Shown piece by piece: positions 5,240 to 42,657 of a stretch of DNA of 44,885 bases. The notes under the pieces are model-generated. The model saw only the letters and a list, made by a program, of their open reading frames with translations. It searched no databases and was not told the DNA's origin. Both the position numbers and the translations under genes were made by a program. The DNA comes from Gemmatimonadota bacterium. GTDB lineage: Bacteria > Gemmatimonadota > Gemmatimonadetes > Longimicrobiales > Gaopeijiaceae. The stretch is from assembly GCA_040882465.1 (NCBI GenBank), contig JBBEBG010000003.1, forward strand, positions 1 to 44,885, in the 5' to 3' direction. The stretch's first letter is position 1; each line of letters opens with the position of its first letter.

Positions 5240-5320
5240 CAGGGGGTCCTTCCATCGGGGGTCAGTCGCAGCGCCAGGGATTGGGCTGCGGGGAGCCACA
5301 GCTCGTGGCAATCTCATTCC

Positions 5321-6742
5321 TCAGCAGGGGCAGTCGGCCCTCCTCCGATTATAGAACCACCAATTGAGCCCGATATTCATGAGGTAAAAGACAGCGGCGC
5401 CGTAGAAGAAAGGTGCGGGGGAGCCCGTGGCGCTGATCACCCAACCGATCAGCGAGGCGAAGACAAACGGTCCATAGGCCGCCACAGCGGCAGTCCATCC
5501 GATCACCGATGCACCCTGCCGAGGGTTTTCGCAGAAGATGACGGGTATCTGCCGAAACGTTGACGCATTTCCGACCCCGGAGAAGAAGAAGATCCCGAGC
5601 ATCAGGGCCACGAACCACCCGAACTGGTCCACCGATGTGGGGTCGAGAAATGGAATCACCCCGAGGGCACAGATAACGAGTCCGACGCCGGAAACGGTCG
5701 TGAGGATCGCGCCTCCCCAGCGATCGCTGGGAGGGCCCGCGACGATGCGCATAAGGGAGCCCACGAGTGGCCCGAGATAGGCGAAATGCAGAGGATCCGG
5801 AGCGTCAGGGAAGCCTCCGTAGCTGGTCCGAATGAGAAGCGGAAAGGCCGCGGCGAATCCTGCGAACGAGCCGAAGGTCATGACATAGAGAGAGGTCATG
5901 ATCCAGGTGTGCTTGATTCGAAAGATGTCGAACTGCTCTCGAAATGATGCCCGGACCGGGACGCTTCGCAGAAAGATCCAACAGAGCACACCGATGGCGA
6001 CCAGAAAGGGCACGTAGATGAAGACGGCGTTCTGGAGCCAGACCTCCTCGATTTGCCCCCCCCGGTCCAACACCTGTGATGCTCCGACCAGGCCTCCAAT
6101 CGAAGCAACCCCGATGATCAAAGGGGTGAGGAACTGAACAACGCTCACGCCGAAGTTCCCAACACCGGCCTGGATCGCGAGCGCTGTGCCCTGGAGACGC
6201 TTTGGAAAGAAGAGGCTCGTGCTCGGCATGTACGATGAAAAGTCCCCTCCTCCGAAGCCCGCGGATAGAGCGAGGACGGCGAAGAGCCAGAACGGAGTGT
6301 CCGGATTCATCACGGCCAGCCCGATCCCGATGCAGGGAAGCAGCTTCAAGAAGGTTGCCACCGTAATGACGTGCCGACTGCCGAACATAGGTACCAGAAA
6401 GGTGTGCACGATGCGAAGCGTCCCGCCGGCCAGCCCCGGTAGGGCCGCGAGCCAGAAGAGCTGCATATCCGTGTAGGTGAAGCCGATTTCTGGGAGGCGC
6501 ACCACGATGGCGCTCATCGCGAACCAGGTCGCGAAGGAGAGCACGAGGCTGATGGTCGTGAGCGTCAGCGTGCGCCAGGCGATCCGCCGGCCCACGGAGG
6601 CCCAGAACTTTGGATCCTCCGGTTCCCAGTGGCTTAGCCAGGTCCCTGAATCCGGAGCAGCTTCTGGAATGACCTCCGTAACTTGGGTCACGTTCACTGC
6701 CTCCCGCAGAGGAATCCCCAGGTCGCCATCACCGATCGCCAA
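5321..6742 (-). CDS. narK: NarK-type nitrate/nitrite transporter (second of a pair)
   Basis: A major-facilitator protein of 473 residues and about 12 predicted membrane helices, moving nitrate in and/or nitrite out across the inner membrane. The NarK nitrate signature is clear: GFGGGDFSSYMPSTSLFFP and then GVGNFGVSVVQF, with a second glycine-rich stretch around SGVGNASTFRQIP. A roughly 55-residue soluble N-terminus precedes TM1. The start overlaps the end of the other narK by 14 bases, as in organisms where NarK1 and NarK2 are paired or fused. Which copy does symport and which antiport cannot be settled from sequence alone. Confidence 0.92.
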   Translation of the reverse strand: MAIGDGDLGIPLREAVNVTQVTEVIPEAAPDSGTWLSHWEPEDPKFWASVGRRIAWRTLTLTTISLVLSFATWFAMSAIVVRLPEIGFTYTDMQLFWLAALPGLAGGTLRIVHTFLVPMFGSRHVITVATFLKLLPCIGIGLAVMNPDTPFWLFAVLALSAGFGGGDFSSYMPSTSLFFPKRLQGTALAIQAGVGNFGVSVVQFLTPLIIGVASIGGLVGASQVLDRGGQIEEVWLQNAVFIYVPFLVAIGVLCWIFLRSVPVRASFREQFDIFRIKHTWIMTSLYVMTFGSFAGFAAAFPLLIRTSYGGFPDAPDPLHFAYLGPLVGSLMRIVAGPPSDRWGGAILTTVSGVGLVICALGVIPFLDPTSVDQFGWFVALMLGIFFFSGVGNASTFRQIPVIFCENPRQGASVIGWTAAVAAYGPFVFASLIGWVISATGSPAPFFYGAAVFYLMNIGLNWWFYNRRRADCPC

Positions 6743-9088: not shown

Positions 9089-9804
9089 GGCGCCTCTCCC
9101 AATGCGTAGCTTGGTTGGTCGGAGGGCTCGATCTCCAACTCCCGGGCGATTCCATTCAGGAAGTCGTGCGAAGGGGCGGGAGACGACGCATCCGAGGAAA
9201 CCTTGAAGTCCGTTTCCAGCACCGCCAGAACCGATTCGAGCGGGTGGCGGAACATGGTGCCCCGCTCCGTCGAAGTGACGATCAGCGTGCCGAAGTGCTT
9301 GCGGTACAGCTCGTCCCGCCCGGAGATGCGTCGTTGATCGAACTCCTCGATCATCTGCCTTAGCGCCGGATGGAAAACTTCCGTGACCAATTCCCCCGCC
9401 AGGTCACGGTCCTCCCACCGGGCCAGGAGCCGCAGGACGTTCGGGAGATGATCCGGGAGTTCGCTCCCGAAGTCGATCCCCAGGGCTCGCCCCTCTCGGT
9501 TCAGATTCGCGAGGAGCTCTCCCCGCTTGTAATCATCTCCGAATACGAGATAGCCGACGCTGAGCGTCGTGATCGGCTGAACATCGAAGGACCTTGTGAA
9601 GATCTCCTGGACCTCGTCGAGGGCCTCCGGCGTGAAGGGACCCCCTTCCGTCGGAAGGAGCTTGGCGAAGGCATCGAGATGGGCGGCCCCCACGACGTAC
9701 CGCCCGGCCAGCAGGTCGTAGGTCGCCTGGACCCAGGAGGGATAGTCGCGGCGAGGATAGTCGAAGAGGGTCGCCAGATGCTCGTAGTGCGTAAATGGGT
9801 GCAT
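9085..9804 (-). CDS. narJ: Nitrate reductase assembly chaperone NarJ
   Basis: Private chaperone that helps insert the molybdenum cofactor into NarG before membrane attachment; it is not part of the final enzyme. At 239 residues (E. coli 236) it has the helical NarJ/TorD fold with the typical YEHLATLFDYPR opening, the LSVGYLVFGDDYKRGELLANL segment (family: xxLFgxdxxRGxxLvxL) and DHLPNVLRLLA. It overlaps narI by 4 bases and follows narH with a 2-base gap. Confidence 0.93.
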   Translation of the reverse strand: MHPFTHYEHLATLFDYPRRDYPSWVQATYDLLAGRYVVGAAHLDAFAKLLPTEGGPFTPEALDEVQEIFTRSFDVQPITTLSVGYLVFGDDYKRGELLANLNREGRALGIDFGSELPDHLPNVLRLLARWEDRDLAGELVTEVFHPALRQMIEEFDQRRISGRDELYRKHFGTLIVTSTERGTMFRHPLESVLAVLETDFKVSSDASSPAPSHDFLNGIARELEIEPSDQPSYALGEAP

Positions 9805-9806
9805 GA

Positions 9807-11375
9807 TCAGAGCCCCCTCGAGGCGGAGCCGACCTTGAATCCGAAGCCGGTTTCGCCTTTGACACTGTTGACGTCCCCCGTGTCGTCCATCAGCTCGATG
9901 GCTTGCTCCCGGTGCGCTGCGGGAATCACGAAGCGATCGTCGAACTTGGCCAGTGAAGTCAGATAGTAGATCGCCTCGGCGAGCTCTGGGGTCAGTCGTG
10001 TGTCCGCCAGGGCAGAGCTGACCGTTGCTTCGTCGACGTCTCCCACGGTCGCCAGCCTACGATGCAACCGCACGGCCATGAGTTTCTTCAGACGATCGGC
10101 CACCGCCGCCGTATCCCCCGCGCTGAAGAGGTTGGCCATGTACTTGAGCGGGAATCGCGCGTCATCGATCGTTCCGAACAGCTCCCGCGTTGTCGTGTTG
10201 TAGAGCCAACCGTCGGACCAGTCCTTCGCGATCGGATTGATCTTCCCCGCCTGTTCGGAGTCCGCGGTCTTGGTAACTGCAGCCATCACCGGGAGGAGGG
10301 GGGGCACGTAGAAGAGCATCGGGAGCGTGCGAAATTCCGGATGGAGCGGGAGCGCCAAATTCCACACCTTCACGAACTTGTAGGTGGGGGACTTCTGGGC
10401 GGATTCGATCGTGGAATCGGCCACTCCATTGGCTTTCGCCGCCGCGATGACCTCTGGGTCGAAGGGATCCAGGATCATGTCCAACTGTCGGTCGACCAAC
10501 TCGAACTCGGGCGCCGATGCGACGGCCTCGATCCGGTCCGCATCGTAGAGCATGACGCCCAGGTATCGAATCCGGCCCACGCACGAGTGCATGCAGGCGG
10601 GCGCGAGGCCGGATTCGATACGGGGGTAGCACAGGATGCACTTCTCTGATTTTCCTGTGCTCCAGTTGAAGTACGCCTTCTTGTAAGGACAGGCGGTCAC
10701 GCACATCCGCCATCCCCTGCAAACGTCCTGATTGATCAAGACCACACCGTCTTCCCCCCGTTTGTAGATCGCTCCGGAGGGACAGGCCGCCACACAGGAT
10801 GCGTTCAGGCAATGATTGCAGATCCGCGGGAGATAGAAGAAGGCGAGTCGCTCCAACTCGAACATGGCCTCCTGCTCTTCCTGGGAGAGGTTCTGGAAAT
10901 TGGGATCCTTGCGGGCATGGTCGGGCGAGCCGCTTAGATCGTCGTCCCAGTTGGGACCCATCCGGATGTCCATCGGCTCGCCGGTGATCATCGAGATGGG
11001 CCGCGCTGTCGGCTGGACGTCCCCGGCCGGGGACTCGATCAGATCGCTGTACTTGAAGGTGAAGGGCTCATAGTAGTCATCGATCATCGGGAGATGGGGG
11101 TTGTGGAAGATGTTCGTGAGACTCTTCGGTTTCCCTGCTCCCTTCAGCCGAATCCCGGCTCCATCTTTCTCCCACCCGCCCTTGTAAGTGTCCTGATCCT
11201 CCCAGTTCGAGGGATAGCCGGTGCCGGGCTTCGTCTCGACGTTGTTCCACCACATGTATTCGGCGCCCTTTCGATCCGTCCAGAGGTTCTTGCAGGCGAT
11301 CGAGCAGGTGTGGCACCCGATGCACTTGTCCAGGTGAAACACCATCGAAATCTGTGAGCGCACATCCATCTTCAT
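9807..11375 (-). CDS. narH: Respiratory nitrate reductase beta subunit NarH
   Basis: Iron-sulfur electron-transfer subunit between NarI and NarG. At 522 residues (E. coli 512) all four cluster motifs are visible: Cys18/21/24/28 (CIGCHTCSIAC), CNHCLNASCVAACP, the third motif CRGWRMCVTACP with Trp in place of one Cys, as expected for the [3Fe-4S] centre, and CILCYPRIESGLAPAC with MHSC. The start MKMDVRSQISMVFHLDKC matches the family. The stop is 2 bases before narJ and the start 23 bases after narG. No signal peptide, so the catalytic side is cytoplasmic. Confidence 0.96.
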   Translation of the reverse strand: MKMDVRSQISMVFHLDKCIGCHTCSIACKNLWTDRKGAEYMWWNNVETKPGTGYPSNWEDQDTYKGGWEKDGAGIRLKGAGKPKSLTNIFHNPHLPMIDDYYEPFTFKYSDLIESPAGDVQPTARPISMITGEPMDIRMGPNWDDDLSGSPDHARKDPNFQNLSQEEQEAMFELERLAFFYLPRICNHCLNASCVAACPSGAIYKRGEDGVVLINQDVCRGWRMCVTACPYKKAYFNWSTGKSEKCILCYPRIESGLAPACMHSCVGRIRYLGVMLYDADRIEAVASAPEFELVDRQLDMILDPFDPEVIAAAKANGVADSTIESAQKSPTYKFVKVWNLALPLHPEFRTLPMLFYVPPLLPVMAAVTKTADSEQAGKINPIAKDWSDGWLYNTTTRELFGTIDDARFPLKYMANLFSAGDTAAVADRLKKLMAVRLHRRLATVGDVDEATVSSALADTRLTPELAEAIYYLTSLAKFDDRFVIPAAHREQAIELMDDTGDVNSVKGETGFGFKVGSASRGL

Positions 11376-35614: not shown

Positions 35615-38600
35615 ATGCTGAAGCGAATCATCGACTGGTCCATCCGTCAGAGATTCCTCGTCCTGCTGGGCGCCGCCGCGGCGACCGTAGCCGGAGTCTG
35701 GGCCATGCTCCAGACTCCCGTCGATGCCATTCCCGACCTCTCGGACGTGCAGGTGATCGTCATGACCGAATGGCCGGGGCAGGCACCCGAATTGGTCGAG
35801 GACCAGGTCACCTACCCGCTGTCCACGGAGATGCTGAAGGTCCCCGGCACCCGGTTCGTCCGCGGGATGAGCCAGTTCGGGAGATCGGCCGTTTATGTCG
35901 TCTTCGAAGACAATGTGGAGCTGTACTGGGCGCGCTCCCGGGTTCTCGAGTACTTGAATGGCGTAAGAGACCGGCTCCCCGAGGGGGCAATGACCATCCT
36001 CGGCCCCGACGCTACCGGCGTCGGCTGGGTGATGCAGTACATCCTCACGGATACCACGGGCCGGCTGAACCTGGCCGAGCTTCGCAGTCTGCAGGACTGG
36101 ACCGTGAGGCCCGGGCTGACTTCCGTCCAGGGCGTGGCCGAGATCGCCAGCTTAGGCGGTTTCGAGAAGCAGTACCAGATCGAGGTCGATCCGTCTCGAC
36201 TTCTCGCCTTCAACCTCCCGATGGCCAAGGTGATCCAGGCGGTGCGCGAGTCGAACGCCGACGTGGGCGGGCGGGTGCTGGAGCTGGGCGGCAGCGAATA
36301 CGTGGTCCGGGGAAGGGGACGGTTTGACTCTCTCGAAGACATCCGATCGGTGTCGCTCGGCGCCGGACCGGGGGGAGTGCCGATCACGGTAGGTGACGTG
36401 GCCCGCGTCCAGCTCGGCCCCGAGATCCGCCGCGGGATCGCCGACCTCAACGGGCAGGGTGAGATCGTCACCGGATTCGTGGTGATGCGCTTCGGCGAGA
36501 ACCCGCTCGACGTGATTGCCGGGGTGAAGGAGAAGATGGCCGAGCTGGAATCGGCCCTTCCCGCGGGAGTAAGGTTCGTGGTTGGGTACGATCGCTCGGG
36601 ACTAATCGGACGCGCCATCCAGACCCTGCGCGAAAAGCTGATCGAAGAGTCGCTGATCGTGGCGCTGGTCACGGTCATTTTCTTGCTCCACGCGCGCAGT
36701 GCGCTAGTGGCGATCGTGACGCTGCCGCTCGGGATCCTGATCGCATTCGTCGCCATGCGCTTCCTGGGGATCGGCGCCAACATCATGAGCCTCGGAGGGA
36801 TCGCCATTGCGATCGGCGCTATGATCGACGCGGCGATCGTGATGGTGGAGAACCTTCACAAGCACATGGAACGGAATCGGCGCGAAGGCGGCCGCAGGAC
36901 GCACTGGCAGATGGTGGCCGACTCGTCCAAAGAGGTCGGCCCGGCGCTCTTCACCTCTCTTCTGATCATCACCGTCTCCTTCATCCCGGTCTTTGCCCTG
37001 GAGGCACAAGAGGGTCGGCTCTTCAAGCCGCTCGCGTGGACGAAAACGCTCTCCATGGCGGCGGCGGCGCTCCTCTCGATCACTCTGGTCCCGGTCCTGA
37101 TGGGGCTCTTCATTCGGGGTGGAGTCAGGTCGGAGCGGAGAAACCCGGTCAGCCGCTTGCTCATCGGCGCCTACCGGCCGGTCATCCACTTTGTCTTGCG
37201 GCATCGCTGGCCGGTCATCGGCGCGGCGCTGGCGGTCCTGGGGATCACCATCCTCCCCTGGAAGAAGCTCGGCAGTGAATTCATGCCGCCCCTGAACGAG
37301 GGGAGCATCATGGACATGCCCTCGATGTTCCCAGGAACCGGGACGGCGCAGGCCAGGCAGATCCTCCAGCAGCGGGATGCCGCGATGGCCAGGATCCCCG
37401 AGGTGGAGATGGTGCTGGGAAAGATCGGGCGGGCCGAGAGCGCGACCGATATGGCACCTCTGTCGATGATCGAGTCCGTCGCCATCCTCAGGCCCGAGGA
37501 GCAGTGGCGCCCGGGGGTCACCTTCGATTCGATCCAGGCGGAGATGAATGCCACGGTAACGACCCCCGGAGTCGCGAACATGTGGTCGATGCCGATTAAG
37601 AACCGACTCGACATGCTCGCGACGGGCATCAAGACTCCGGTCGGGATCAAGCTCTTCGGGCCGGACCTCGCCACCCTCGACCGGATCGGCCAGCAGATCG
37701 AGGGCCTCCTGCCGCAGGTCGAAGGGACCAATTCGGTGTTCGCGGAGCGCGCGCTGGGGGGACGGTACCTGGACATTGAAGTCGATCGTCACGCGACTGC
37801 CCGGTATGGGATGACTGTCGCCGAGGTACAGATGGGGATGATGGCTGCCGTTGGCGGAATGTACGCGGGTGAGGTGATCGAGGGTCGCGAGCGTTACTCC
37901 GTGCTGGTCCGCTATCCACGCGAGCTCCGCGACGACCCGCAGAGGATCGCGTCCACGCTGGTGGCGACGCCCGCGGGCGCGCAGGTGACGCTCGGTGAGT
38001 TGGCGAACCTGCGCGTGGTGCAGGGCCCACCGCTCATCAAGTCTGAGAACGCCTACCTGAATAACGTCGTCTATGTGGACGTTCGGGGACGCGACATCGG
38101 CGGCTATGTGGAGGAGGCACGGGAGCTCCTTCAGCAACGGCTCGACCTTCCCGTGGGCTACCGGTTGGAGTGGTCGGGACAATTCGAGGCCATGGAGCGC
38201 GCCAATCGAAAGCTCCGCTACGTCGTTCCGATCACGCTCGCCATCATATTCCTGCTCCTCTTCTTCCAGTTCGGGAGCGTGGCCGAGAGCGCGTTGGTGA
38301 TGCTCTCACTCCCGTTCGCGCTGGTCGGAGGCGTGTGGCTCATGTGGTTGATGGACTTCAACTTGAGCGTGGCCACGGCCATCGGATTCATCGCCCTGGC
38401 GGGGGTGGCCGCCGAAACGGGTGTAGTCATGCTGATCTACCTGGACCATGCGTACCGTGAACGGCGTGAGACGGGCGCGCTCAGGGGCCGCGGGGACGTG
38501 GACGCCGCGGTGGAGTACGGCGCGGTCGAGCGGGTTCGTCCAAAGATGATGACCGTGACCGCGATCATCGCGGGTCTCCTTCCGATCCTCTGGGGACACG

Positions 38601-38803
38601 GGGCCGGGGCGGACGTCATGAAGCGGATCGCCGCTCCGATGGTGGGCGGGATGGTATCGTCGACGATCCTGACGCTCGTGGTGATTCCCGCAATTTACTC
38701 GCTCTGGAAGGAGTGGGAGGTCAAGCGAAACGGCCGTCGCTCGGACGCTCTCCTCGATCAGATGCCAGTGCTCACGGAGGTGCGAGTCGGCGGTGCAGAC
38801 TGA
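35615..38803 (+). CDS. cusA: Heavy-metal RND efflux pump CusA (Cu(I)/Ag(I) type)
   Basis: Inner-membrane proton-driven pump of 1062 residues with 12 helices and two large periplasmic loops. The three methionines of the E. coli CusA metal site (573, 623, 672) align to Met568 (MDMPSMFPG), Met618 (APLSMIES) and Met667 (RLDMLATG), with identical spacing of 50 and 49. This identifies Cu(I)/Ag(I) rather than Co/Zn/Cd substrates. The proton-relay helix GAMIDAAIVMVENLHKH and the second-half counterpart FIALAGVAAETGVVMLIYL are intact. Last of the three pump genes; it overlaps the frame of the following gene region but that gene starts later. Confidence 0.96.
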   Translation: MLKRIIDWSIRQRFLVLLGAAAATVAGVWAMLQTPVDAIPDLSDVQVIVMTEWPGQAPELVEDQVTYPLSTEMLKVPGTRFVRGMSQFGRSAVYVVFEDNVELYWARSRVLEYLNGVRDRLPEGAMTILGPDATGVGWVMQYILTDTTGRLNLAELRSLQDWTVRPGLTSVQGVAEIASLGGFEKQYQIEVDPSRLLAFNLPMAKVIQAVRESNADVGGRVLELGGSEYVVRGRGRFDSLEDIRSVSLGAGPGGVPITVGDVARVQLGPEIRRGIADLNGQGEIVTGFVVMRFGENPLDVIAGVKEKMAELESALPAGVRFVVGYDRSGLIGRAIQTLREKLIEESLIVALVTVIFLLHARSALVAIVTLPLGILIAFVAMRFLGIGANIMSLGGIAIAIGAMIDAAIVMVENLHKHMERNRREGGRRTHWQMVADSSKEVGPALFTSLLIITVSFIPVFALEAQEGRLFKPLAWTKTLSMAAAALLSITLVPVLMGLFIRGGVRSERRNPVSRLLIGAYRPVIHFVLRHRWPVIGAALAVLGITILPWKKLGSEFMPPLNEGSIMDMPSMFPGTGTAQARQILQQRDAAMARIPEVEMVLGKIGRAESATDMAPLSMIESVAILRPEEQWRPGVTFDSIQAEMNATVTTPGVANMWSMPIKNRLDMLATGIKTPVGIKLFGPDLATLDRIGQQIEGLLPQVEGTNSVFAERALGGRYLDIEVDRHATARYGMTVAEVQMGMMAAVGGMYAGEVIEGRERYSVLVRYPRELRDDPQRIASTLVATPAGAQVTLGELANLRVVQGPPLIKSENAYLNNVVYVDVRGRDIGGYVEEARELLQQRLDLPVGYRLEWSGQFEAMERANRKLRYVVPITLAIIFLLLFFQFGSVAESALVMLSLPFALVGGVWLMWLMDFNLSVATAIGFIALAGVAAETGVVMLIYLDHAYRERRETGALRGRGDVDAAVEYGAVERVRPKMMTVTAIIAGLLPILWGHGAGADVMKRIAAPMVGGMVSSTILTLVVIPAIYSLWKEWEVKRNGRRSDALLDQMPVLTEVRVGGAD

Positions 38804-40006: not shown

Positions 40007-40792
40007 TCAGGCCGGCTTCACCCCCGTGATCACGATCGCATGGGCGTTGAAGCCCGACGCGACCTTCTTCGTCTCGTCACTGGGGCTCGCCGAGAAGTAG
40101 TCCACGCGCTGCAGGATCTCCAGATCTTCGAACCCGGCCTTCGCCAGCGTCTCGAGATACTGGTCCTTCGTCACGGCGCCGACGATGCACTCGGCCCAGA
40201 GCTCCGGCTTCGCGCGGCACGCCTCCGACGGCGGAATCTCCACTACGATGTCGGAGATCTGGATCTTCCCGCCCGGACGGAGTACCCGGTAGATCTCGCG
40301 GATCGCGGACTCCTTGTCCGGGACGAGATTCAGCACGCCGTTGCTCGTGACGACGTCCACGGAAGTGTCGGGGAGGGGGATCTCTTCCGCGTTTCCGTCG
40401 AGGGTTCGGACGTTCGTCGCGCCCATCTCCCTCGCATTCCTCTCCAGCTTCTCGCGCATCGCGGAGGTCATGTCGAGCCCGATCACCTCACCCTCCAATC
40501 CGACGATCCGGCTCGCGATGAGCGCGTCGGTGCCCGAGCCCGAGCCTACGTCGAGGACGGTCTGGCCGGGGCGGATCACATCGGCGATGAAGGGGTGGGC
40601 GACTCCGGCGAAGGACTCGAGGGCGCCCGGCGGGATCGGGTCGAGCTCGTCGGCGGAGTAGCCGACGTACTCGCAGGCGAAGCGCCCGGTCGCGAAGTGG
40701 AATTCGTCCTGTGGCTGCCGCGCGAGGTGCGAATACATGCCCCGCACGGCGTCGATGATGACGTCCCGGTTCTCGGAGGTGATGACGACCAT
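40007..40792 (-). CDS. SAM-dependent methyltransferase, ArsM-like fold
   Basis: A class I methyltransferase of 261 residues. SAM motif I is VLDVGSGSGTDA; also visible are GLDMTSAM, DGNAEEIPLPD and EIYRVLRPGGKIQISD. The sequence follows arsenite methyltransferases closely in the VDVVTSNGVLNLVPDK and WAECIVGAVTKDQYLE regions. The arsenic-binding Cys of the SNC motif is replaced by Gly (SNG), and the N-terminal Cys is also absent; only the CxxGA-type Cys remains. Arsenite methylation is therefore doubtful. It is the last gene of the osmC-sigma-anti-sigma cassette, 79 bases after the anti-sigma gene. Confidence 0.85.
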   Translation of the reverse strand: MVVITSENRDVIIDAVRGMYSHLARQPQDEFHFATGRFACEYVGYSADELDPIPPGALESFAGVAHPFIADVIRPGQTVLDVGSGSGTDALIASRIVGLEGEVIGLDMTSAMREKLERNAREMGATNVRTLDGNAEEIPLPDTSVDVVTSNGVLNLVPDKESAIREIYRVLRPGGKIQISDIVVEIPPSEACRAKPELWAECIVGAVTKDQYLETLAKAGFEDLEILQRVDYFSASPSDETKKVASGFNAHAIVITGVKPA

Positions 40793-40871
40793 GGTTCACT
40801 GGCTCCCTGTCTCGGTGAATCGTGGAACGTGCGACTATTCGATGCGTGATCCTGGCGCCGGCGCCGATCTA

Positions 40872-41126
40872 CTACTCGCCGGTTTCCTTCTCGAATCGTG
40901 CGACCAGGGCACGGATGCGGTCATGGAATTCATGCCGCACCGGGGCGTGGCCGAGGGCGGAGACGCGGTCTCGTAGTCCCTTCTCGAACTCGTGCCGCGA
41001 CTTGCAGCTCCGGCAGGCTTCGAGATGGTCCTCGAGCGCGCCGCTCCTGTTCCGGTCCAGCTCCTCGTCCAGATATTCGACGAGCATCCGGATCGCTTCC
41101 TTGCAGGTCAGAATTTCCTTTGTCAT
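40872..41126 (-). CDS. Zinc-binding anti-sigma factor (zf-HC2 type)
   Basis: An 84-residue cytoplasmic protein starting MTKEILTCKEAIRMLVEYLD. The zinc anti-sigma ligands are C8, H34, C38 and C41 (H-x3-C-x2-C in DHLEACRSC). The C-terminal half is a charged helix without a membrane segment, so it is the soluble type, which may react to oxidants through the zinc cysteines. It overlaps the sigma gene by 4 bases, which fits stoichiometric co-translation. Confidence 0.9.
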   Translation of the reverse strand: MTKEILTCKEAIRMLVEYLDEELDRNRSGALEDHLEACRSCKSRHEFEKGLRDRVSALGHAPVRHEFHDRIRALVARFEKETGE

Positions 41127-41842
41127 GACTCGGCCTCCTCCTCGGGAGCCCGGTTGCGCGGGGTTCTCAGGCCCATGTCGATGGCTTGGTCCCACAGCGA
41201 CTTCTGAAGCAGGGACCGTCCCCGCGCGAGGCGGGAGCGAATGGTACCCACGGGAACGTCCAGGGCGTCCGCGGCTTCCTGATACGAAAGCCCCTGAATC
41301 TCGACCAGCACGACGGCGACCCGGAAGGCCTCCGGGAGCGTGTCCACGGCGCACGCGACGTCCTCCTGGAGGAGGCGATTCAGAAAGTCCCGCTCCGGAT
41401 TGGCCTGCCAGAGGAGGAAGGGCTGGTGCAGCCGTTCGAAGATCGAGAAAGTCTCGTCGCTGCCGTCCGTCTCTTCGTACTCCTGCGTCTCCGCCTTCGC
41501 CGCGGCACTCCGCTTCTGGCTGAGGAAGGTGTTCGTGAGGATCCGGCACATCCATCCGCGGAAGGACGACCGATCGCGGAGCGACTCCAGCGACCCGAGC
41601 GCCTTCACCATCGCTTCAGCCACAAGATCCTCGGCGTCCGCGTCGTTCCTCGTGAGCCGCCGCGCGGTGGCGAGGAGTCCCGGAAGAAGCGCCGTGATCT
41701 CGCCTTCGAACCAGGCATTGCCAACCTCCCCGACGGATCCCGCTTCCTTCGCGGCCCCGGTCTTTCCGACCGGCCCGGCCTCTTCCACCTGTGCGGCCTC
41801 TTCGGTCATCTCGGCTCTCTCGATCGTCGCGGCTGCCGACAT
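41123..41842 (-). CDS. ECF-type sigma factor
   Basis: A 239-residue alternative sigma factor. The first about 45 residues are a low-complexity Glu/Ala/Gly tract; translation could instead begin at the ATG 11 codons later. Region 2 is about 50-112 (DADAEDLVAEAMVKAL, SSFRGWMCRILTNTFLSQKR) and region 4 about 160-212 (LPEAFRVAVVLVEIQGLSYQ, ALDVPVGTIRSRLARGRSLL). Its own upstream region carries a GGAAC-N17-CGTC promoter identical in layout to the one before osmC, so it should activate itself. Confidence 0.93.
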   Translation of the reverse strand: MSAAATIERAEMTEEAAQVEEAGPVGKTGAAKEAGSVGEVGNAWFEGEITALLPGLLATARRLTRNDADAEDLVAEAMVKALGSLESLRDRSSFRGWMCRILTNTFLSQKRSAAAKAETQEYEETDGSDETFSIFERLHQPFLLWQANPERDFLNRLLQEDVACAVDTLPEAFRVAVVLVEIQGLSYQEAADALDVPVGTIRSRLARGRSLLQKSLWDQAIDMGLRTPRNRAPEEEAES

Positions 41843-41893
41843 CTCTCTCGTCTCCCTCGTCCCGCGTCCTCTCGGCGATCCATTCACCGGGGG

Positions 41894-41919
41894 GACGCAG
41901 CGGGTTCCGAAATAGTTCC
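41894..41919 (-). promoter_or_regulatory. ECF sigma-dependent promoter before the sigma gene
   Basis: On the minus strand GGAAC (41915-41919) and CGTC (41894-41897) are 17 bases apart, the classical ECF -35/-10 pair. The core GGGAACTATTTCGG is shared exactly with the promoter before osmC, and CTGCGTC recurs at the -10. The CGTC ends about 52 bases before the sigma start. Confidence 0.8.
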
Positions 41920-41928
41920 CGGACTTGC

Positions 41929-42495
41929 TCAGGCCGCCAGCCCGATGGTCACCGGGACGGGGTTCCTGAGGATGTCGAGGAGCGGAGACGTACGCAGAAC
42001 ATGTGTCCAGAGCTCGGCGAGCGCCTCTTCGGAAGCGTCGGTCTCCAGGTGGACCCGGAGCTGGATTTCCTCGAATCCGGGGCGCACCATGTCGGAGAGC
42101 CCGAGGAATCCCCGGAGGTCGAGGGCACCCACGACCTCGAAGGCGATGGCGTGTACCGTGATCCCGCGCGCCGCGGCGTTGTATACGAGGCCCACCGTGA
42201 GGCAGGAGGTGAGCGCATGGAGCACGACCTCCACCGCGTTCGGGCCCTCGTTCGTGCCGAGAAGGACCGGCGGCTCGTCGCCGACGAGCACGAAGGACTC
42301 GGGCCTGGAGGAGTCCTCGCCTCCCGCTCCATAGAATCCCCGGATGCGGGTTTCCGACTTTCCGCCCGTGATCCACCGCGACCGGGCGCGAAACTGGAAT
42401 TGGGCGAGCTCGGGCTGCGCTTGAATGGCTTCGACCGTCTGCACGAGCTGCTCGACGTTGACTCCGTTGGGGTGCTGCTGCGTCGCGACCGACAT
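41929..42495 (-). CDS. OsmC-like protein
   Basis: A 188-residue OsmC/Ohr-fold protein: NEGPNAVEVVLHALTSCLTV is the conserved helix with the reactive Cys98, and RPGFEEIQLRVHLETDASEE matches the second half. OsmC and Ohr hydroperoxidases use two cysteines; this protein contains only one, so it resembles the YhfA-like branch with uncertain peroxidase activity. It heads the cassette behind an ECF promoter, 86 bases before the sigma start. Stress response to oxidants or electrophiles is likely (inference). Confidence 0.88.
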   Translation of the reverse strand: MSVATQQHPNGVNVEQLVQTVEAIQAQPELAQFQFRARSRWITGGKSETRIRGFYGAGGEDSSRPESFVLVGDEPPVLLGTNEGPNAVEVVLHALTSCLTVGLVYNAAARGITVHAIAFEVVGALDLRGFLGLSDMVRPGFEEIQLRVHLETDASEEALAELWTHVLRTSPLLDILRNPVPVTIGLAA

Positions 42496-42564
42496 GATGG
42501 CCTCCTCGATCTTCAGGGTTCCGGTCCGCTTCCCGGAGCGGACTCATCGTGCGTTCGAGGGGGC

Positions 42565-42590
42565 GACGCAGTGAGGGCCGAAATAGTTCC
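42565..42590 (-). promoter_or_regulatory. ECF sigma-dependent promoter before osmC
   Basis: Minus-strand GGAAC (42586-42590) and CGTC (42565-42568) with 17-base spacing, preceded and followed by the same GGGAACTATTTCGG and CTGCGTC strings as the promoter before the sigma gene. It lies 70 bases upstream of the OsmC start. Confidence 0.82.
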
Positions 42591-42657
42591 CGGGGGGCCC
42601 GATTCTCCTTCTCGCGCAGCACTGCACGGGGGCGCACGCCGAGCGACGAGTGCTTCA

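Follow-up and report, generated by a model that had tools for sequence, protein, structure and literature searches.

Results

A sigma factor cassette with two predicted promoters

We analysed a 44,885-nt stretch of Gemmatimonadota DNA (the window) whose minus strand carries, in this order, a predicted ECF promoter (P1), an osmC gene, a second predicted ECF promoter (P2), and genes for an ECF sigma factor, a zinc anti-sigma factor and a SAM methyltransferase. P1 (42565–42591) has the −35 element GGGAAC and the −10 element CGTC, with a 17-nt gap after GGAAC; the feature thus ends at 42591, against 42590 in the original prediction. It precedes osmC (41929–42495), which encodes a 188-aa OsmC-family protein with a single cysteine (Pfam OsmC, 5.6e-16). 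P2 (41894–41920), whose −35 element lies 8 nt beyond the osmC stop, precedes the gene for a SigH/SigR-like ECF sigma factor of 239 aa (41123–41842; Sigma70_r2 and r4_2). The stop of the sigma gene overlaps the start of the next gene by 4 bp (ATGA); this gene (40872–41126) encodes an RsrA-like zinc anti-sigma factor of 84 aa with a C8-H34-C38-C41 set (zf-HC2, 4.4e-8). The last gene (40007–40792) encodes an ArsM-like SAM methyltransferase of 261 aa, in which SNG replaces the SNC motif of ArsM. Domain matches bear out all the gene calls originally made from the sequence, namely OsmC, ECF sigma, zf-HC2 anti-sigma and SAM methyltransferase. No RNA family was found in the window by Rfam. Beyond the far end of the cassette lies a plus-strand ORF of 1062 aa (35615–38803), whose translation, judged by eye, resembles a CusA-type RND metal efflux pump.

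The sigma factor matches Sigma70_r2 at 50–114 and Sigma70_r4_2 at 160–211, with no region 3 match, and with sigma-70 regions 2 and 4 only it is an ECF factor. Both its best NCBIfam profile (TIGR02947, SigH_actino; 5.7e-34) and its best PDB match (SigH of Mycobacterium tuberculosis) place it nearest to actinobacterial SigH/SigR. It is related to this family but, at 117.5 bits against a curated cut-off of 251.55, not classed as a member. The sigma factor also has an acidic stretch of about 40 aa at its N-terminus (window 41719–41842), beyond the part that aligns with its homologues; in Streptomyces, SigR' carries an unstable N-terminal extension. The genome holds further ECF factors, with one relative at C40:35943.

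The anti-sigma factor contains both the HxxxCxxC motif and the N-terminal zinc-ligand cysteine expected in zinc anti-sigma (ZAS) proteins, and its C8, H34, C38 and C41 are invariant across 13 aligned anti-sigma proteins. These residues correspond to Cys11, His37, Cys41 and Cys44, the redox residues of RsrA (PMC4960319). By its score against the RsrA equivalog TIGR03988 (2.8e-10, 40.1 bits, under the curated cut-off of 62.5) the protein is RsrA-like and is not filed under that family. Its predicted structure has four helices, at low confidence (pLDDT 65.7) and with no significant structural match.

Among solved structures, the methyltransferase is best matched by arsenite methyltransferases. 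ArsM binds arsenic through Cys72, Cys174 and Cys224 (numbering of the algal enzyme), which correspond to V, G and C in the window enzyme. It scores 208.6 against the NCBIfam ArsM profile, under the cut-off of 263. The SNG motif is found in 14/14 aligned cassette methyltransferases, all of which also keep one cysteine in a W-x-x-C motif. The enzyme, correctly called a methyltransferase at the outset, is therefore not a canonical ArsM, since it lacks two of the cysteines that bind arsenic. The OsmC protein belongs to its family by domain score (59.2 bits, gathering cut-off 27.5), and its closest solved structure is 2opl (E 1e-43). A second cysteine (LCxYV), present in 8/8 aligned cassette homologues, is absent from the window OsmC.

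The two promoter sites in the genome

The original prediction described twin GGAAC-N17-CGTC sites sharing a 14-base core, and both are indeed present on the minus strand, before osmC (P1, 42591–42565, GGGAACTATTTCGGCCCTCACTGCGTC) and before the sigma gene (P2, 41920–41894, GGGAACTATTTCGGAACCCGCTGCGTC). They share the core GGGAACTATTTCGG, with the full form GGGAACTATTTCGG-N9-CGTC, and the sequence CTGCGTC at the −10 element. The exact 14-mer occurs twice in the 3.53-Mb genome, with one more site at one mismatch, and GGAACNNTTTN12CGTC matches with zero mismatches at P1 and P2 only. The loose motif GGAAC-N17-CGTC is by itself weak evidence: the window holds three copies versus 0.96 expected, a number reached in 10/100 shuffles. 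Genome-wide, GGGAAC-N17-CGTC has 30 sites versus 5 for the reversed control. As the loose motif is not rare, the promoter claim is carried by comparative evidence, and its significance derives from the shared core together with conservation in relatives.

The two sites are identical at 23/27 positions of the core, and at 18/60 upstream and 23/60 downstream. A recent extended duplication of the promoter region was considered and rejected, because the flanks are dissimilar and identity is restricted to the promoter core.

A genome scan had been suggested as a means of defining the regulon. The strict form singled out P1 and P2, and a wider regulon was not evident: among the other one-mismatch sites inspected in the genome we found neither a clear extended regulon nor a stress gene with a convincing site. 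The other near match in the genome (L043, G000:C13:13257–13282, GGAACTTTTTTTGGGTGGATTCTGTC) overlaps a CTGTCCGTCTGGACAG dyad, which looks like the site of another regulator. A sigma-70 scan found no basal promoter. We found no intrinsic terminator-like site between P1 and P2, and transcripts from the osmC promoter may therefore also reach the sigma gene.

Related cassettes in three distant groups

Within a sample of 395 genomes drawn from the window's phylum, its own included, sigma homologues with 44–57% identity were found in 6 other genomes. The gene order is sigma-ZAS-methyltransferase-OsmC at one locus (L031) and sigma-ZAS-methyltransferase at two (L032, L037), and at two more (L033, L034) the sigma-ZAS pair has different neighbours. 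Two of the more distant homologues, at L034 (around 9640–10505) and L038 (around 5270–5893), come without a methyltransferase and without the promoter, and may for that reason be paralogues with other roles.

When the sigma protein was used as a direct query of genome contigs no match was obtained; OsmC as the query led to a Chloroflexi genome with a related locus. The sigma gene is present in 7/177 genomes of that Chloroflexota class, and in 7/7 of these loci osmC is divergent from sigma-ZAS-methyltransferase. Three of the seven (L061, L065, L066) have a second methyltransferase gene, and of the two products it is the second that resembles the window enzyme more closely. The 16S sequences of these Chloroflexota genomes are about 74–75% identical to that of the window's genome, consistent with different phyla. 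In an unrooted sigma tree the Gemmatimonadota and the Chloroflexota cassette sigmas each form one well-supported clade.

The third group is the Alphaproteobacteria, represented by a plasmid of Chelatococcus sp. CO-6 (L093; NZ_CP012399.1, 3973–6645) with the order cupin, methyltransferase fragment, sigma, zf-HC2, methyltransferase. The cupin and the methyltransferase fragment stand where OsmC would be. This named strain offers a relative fit for experiments.

The promoter recurs with the cassette

We searched relatives for GGAA(C/T)-N16-18-C(G/A)TC within 250 nt upstream of genes and took the expectation from shuffles. The promoter precedes 12/14 sigma genes, the window's included, versus 0.22 expected, as is characteristic of autoregulated ECF operons; it was not found before the sigma genes of L034 and L038. 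The sigma-proximal copy is conserved even at loci that have no osmC. Before osmC the promoter is found in 8/9 genes versus 0.21 expected, including 7/7 Chloroflexota cassettes, and the sole gene before which it was not found is the osmC of L031, which is the last gene of its sigma operon. In the seven Chloroflexota genomes the gap between osmC and sigma contains two promoter copies facing apart. A third copy stands ahead of the second methyltransferase gene in 3/3 cases (L061:7753, L065:3143, L066:7806), whereas no locus tested had a copy before its first methyltransferase gene, whose place is inside the operon, after the anti-sigma gene. The Chelatococcus plasmid operon is headed by GGGAACTTTATGCGCCGCGATCGCGTC, ahead of the cupin gene. 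A simple rule fits these arrangements in relatives: each transcription unit of the cassette has its own promoter copy.

The strict form GGGAATA-N15-17-CGTC has 18 matches in the seven Chloroflexota genomes, 15 of them in the cassette, with one match for the reversed-pattern control; none of the remaining 3/18, when inspected, pointed to regulation of a stress gene. Strict matches being nearly confined to the cassette, the regulon appears to be private and largely limited to it, at the level of stringency at which degenerate promoters would escape detection.

Discussion

These comparisons make it highly likely that the locus works as a self-contained ECF sigma cassette under positive autoregulation, in the manner of SigR-RsrA and SigH-RshA. 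The positive feedback unit originally envisaged is strongly supported by the comparative data, with the promoter before 12/14 sigma and 8/9 osmC genes and its strict forms nearly confined to the cassette. In the mechanism that we propose, the zinc anti-sigma, translationally coupled to the sigma factor, would hold it inactive, and oxidation or alkylation of the C-H-C-C zinc site would release it. Free sigma would then bring RNA polymerase to P1, for osmC, and to P2, for sigma, anti-sigma and methyltransferase, and so would amplify itself together with two presumably protective enzymes, as the conserved promoters suggest. Anti-sigma newly made with sigma would close the loop once the stress ends. 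We infer that the sigma factor uses these promoters, that the anti-sigma responds to electrophiles or to the oxidation of thiols, and that the enzymes repair or detoxify.

The original prediction also saw in the second promoter a means for sigma to rise apart from OsmC. That the sigma gene has its own promoter stands; separate control of sigma through P2 is possible, and the data argue for it weakly, no terminator having been found between osmC and sigma. P2 would rather be an instance of one promoter per transcription unit, with the sigma gene probably reached also by read-through from the osmC promoter. A stronger version of this doubt, in which P2, a chance copy or the remnant of a local duplication, does nothing by itself and the osmC promoter alone drives one long operon, could appeal to the co-directional osmC and sigma genes with no terminator found between them, and to L031 and the plasmid locus, where a single promoter heads the whole operon. 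We regard it as highly improbable, given that the similarity of P1 and P2 stops at the promoter core, with unlike flanks, and that 12/14 loci keep the sigma-proximal copy, those without osmC among them.

Might the two promoters serve another ECF sigma encoded elsewhere, the local one having a different target? AAC and CGT boxes are typical of many ECFs (PMC8103513), and the genome does encode further ECF factors, including the relative noted above. However, in three distant groups the motif accompanies this sigma gene, and the remainder of those genomes contains hardly any copies, which makes such an arrangement very unlikely. The nature of the inducer is a separate matter. The same autoregulated cassette might respond to a metalloid or metal, for example arsenite, acting on the anti-sigma thiols, with the methyltransferase as the detoxifying enzyme; arsenite methyltransferases are its best matches among solved structures, and the zinc-thiol site could conceivably bind metalloids. 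The enzyme lacks counterparts of ArsM Cys72 and Cys174, however, SNG is found throughout the aligned cassette methyltransferases, and the cassette includes no arsenic transporter or ArsR, so that we consider a metalloid signal unlikely.

Returning to the proposed redox-responsive, autoregulated cassette, we tentatively suggest, at somewhat less than even confidence, that it is a portable minimal redox-alarm module. Its SigR-like sigma and anti-sigma factors would govern a private regulon made up only of OsmC and one or more non-ArsM methyltransferases, the latter acting on a thiol-reactive or soft-nucleophile compound; with a promoter copy per transcription unit, the module would have been kept, or put together more than once, in three or more distant groups of bacteria. 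The switch itself is very probably real and of a broadly familiar type, and the autoregulated sigma/anti-sigma logic is already known. Our literature searches gave no account of a cassette uniting sigma, OsmC and methyltransferase, and in the literature searched, the 2021 ECF classification aside, we found no description of the cross-phylum cassette, nor of the private regulon, the non-canonical methyltransferase or the recurrence in three distant groups. A pattern seen in a single sequence has thus become a defined pairing of sigma factor and promoter, illustrated by more than twenty promoters from comparison, in bacteria in which few sigma factors have been studied so far. A locus-restricted ECF switch is easily testable, and this one points to an uncharacterised group of ArsM-like enzymes tied to thiol stress.

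Comparison with known systems

The methyltransferase domain aligns with ArsM over most of its length and keeps one conserved cysteine (WAEC), whereas two of the arsenic-binding cysteines of ArsM are missing from the window enzyme. Likewise the OsmC protein shares with OsmC/Ohr peroxiredoxins the family domain and the conserved SC cysteine, but this is its single cysteine.

The sigma/anti-sigma pair is most readily compared with the actinobacterial systems. The consensus of M. tuberculosis SigH, derived from mapped transcript starts, is GGAAYR-N17-18-GTT (PMC4803200). The cassette motif is close to it, with near-identical spacing, although its −10 element ends in GTC and not in the GTT of SigH and SigR; SigH is also the closest sigma factor with a solved structure. 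The direct SigH regulon, in contrast, comprises at least 25 genes, with a gene content other than that of the cassette. In SigR-RsrA of Streptomyces coelicolor, as here, an RsrA-type zinc anti-sigma bearing the C-H-C-C set is encoded after the sigma factor. Most ECF operons activate themselves through a promoter that their own sigma factor recognises (PMC8103513), and for sigR such autoregulation, from sigRp2, has been established (PMC5472188). The cassette resembles SigR-RsrA in its predicted autoregulatory promoter with a GGAAT-type −35 element, which is exact in the Chloroflexota copies. It differs in that OsmC and an ArsM-like methyltransferase lie within the window unit and in scores that fall under the curated cut-offs. 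It differs also in reach: the SigR regulon exceeds 100 genes and operons (PMC5472188), while strict promoter matches of the cassette are nearly limited to the cassette itself.
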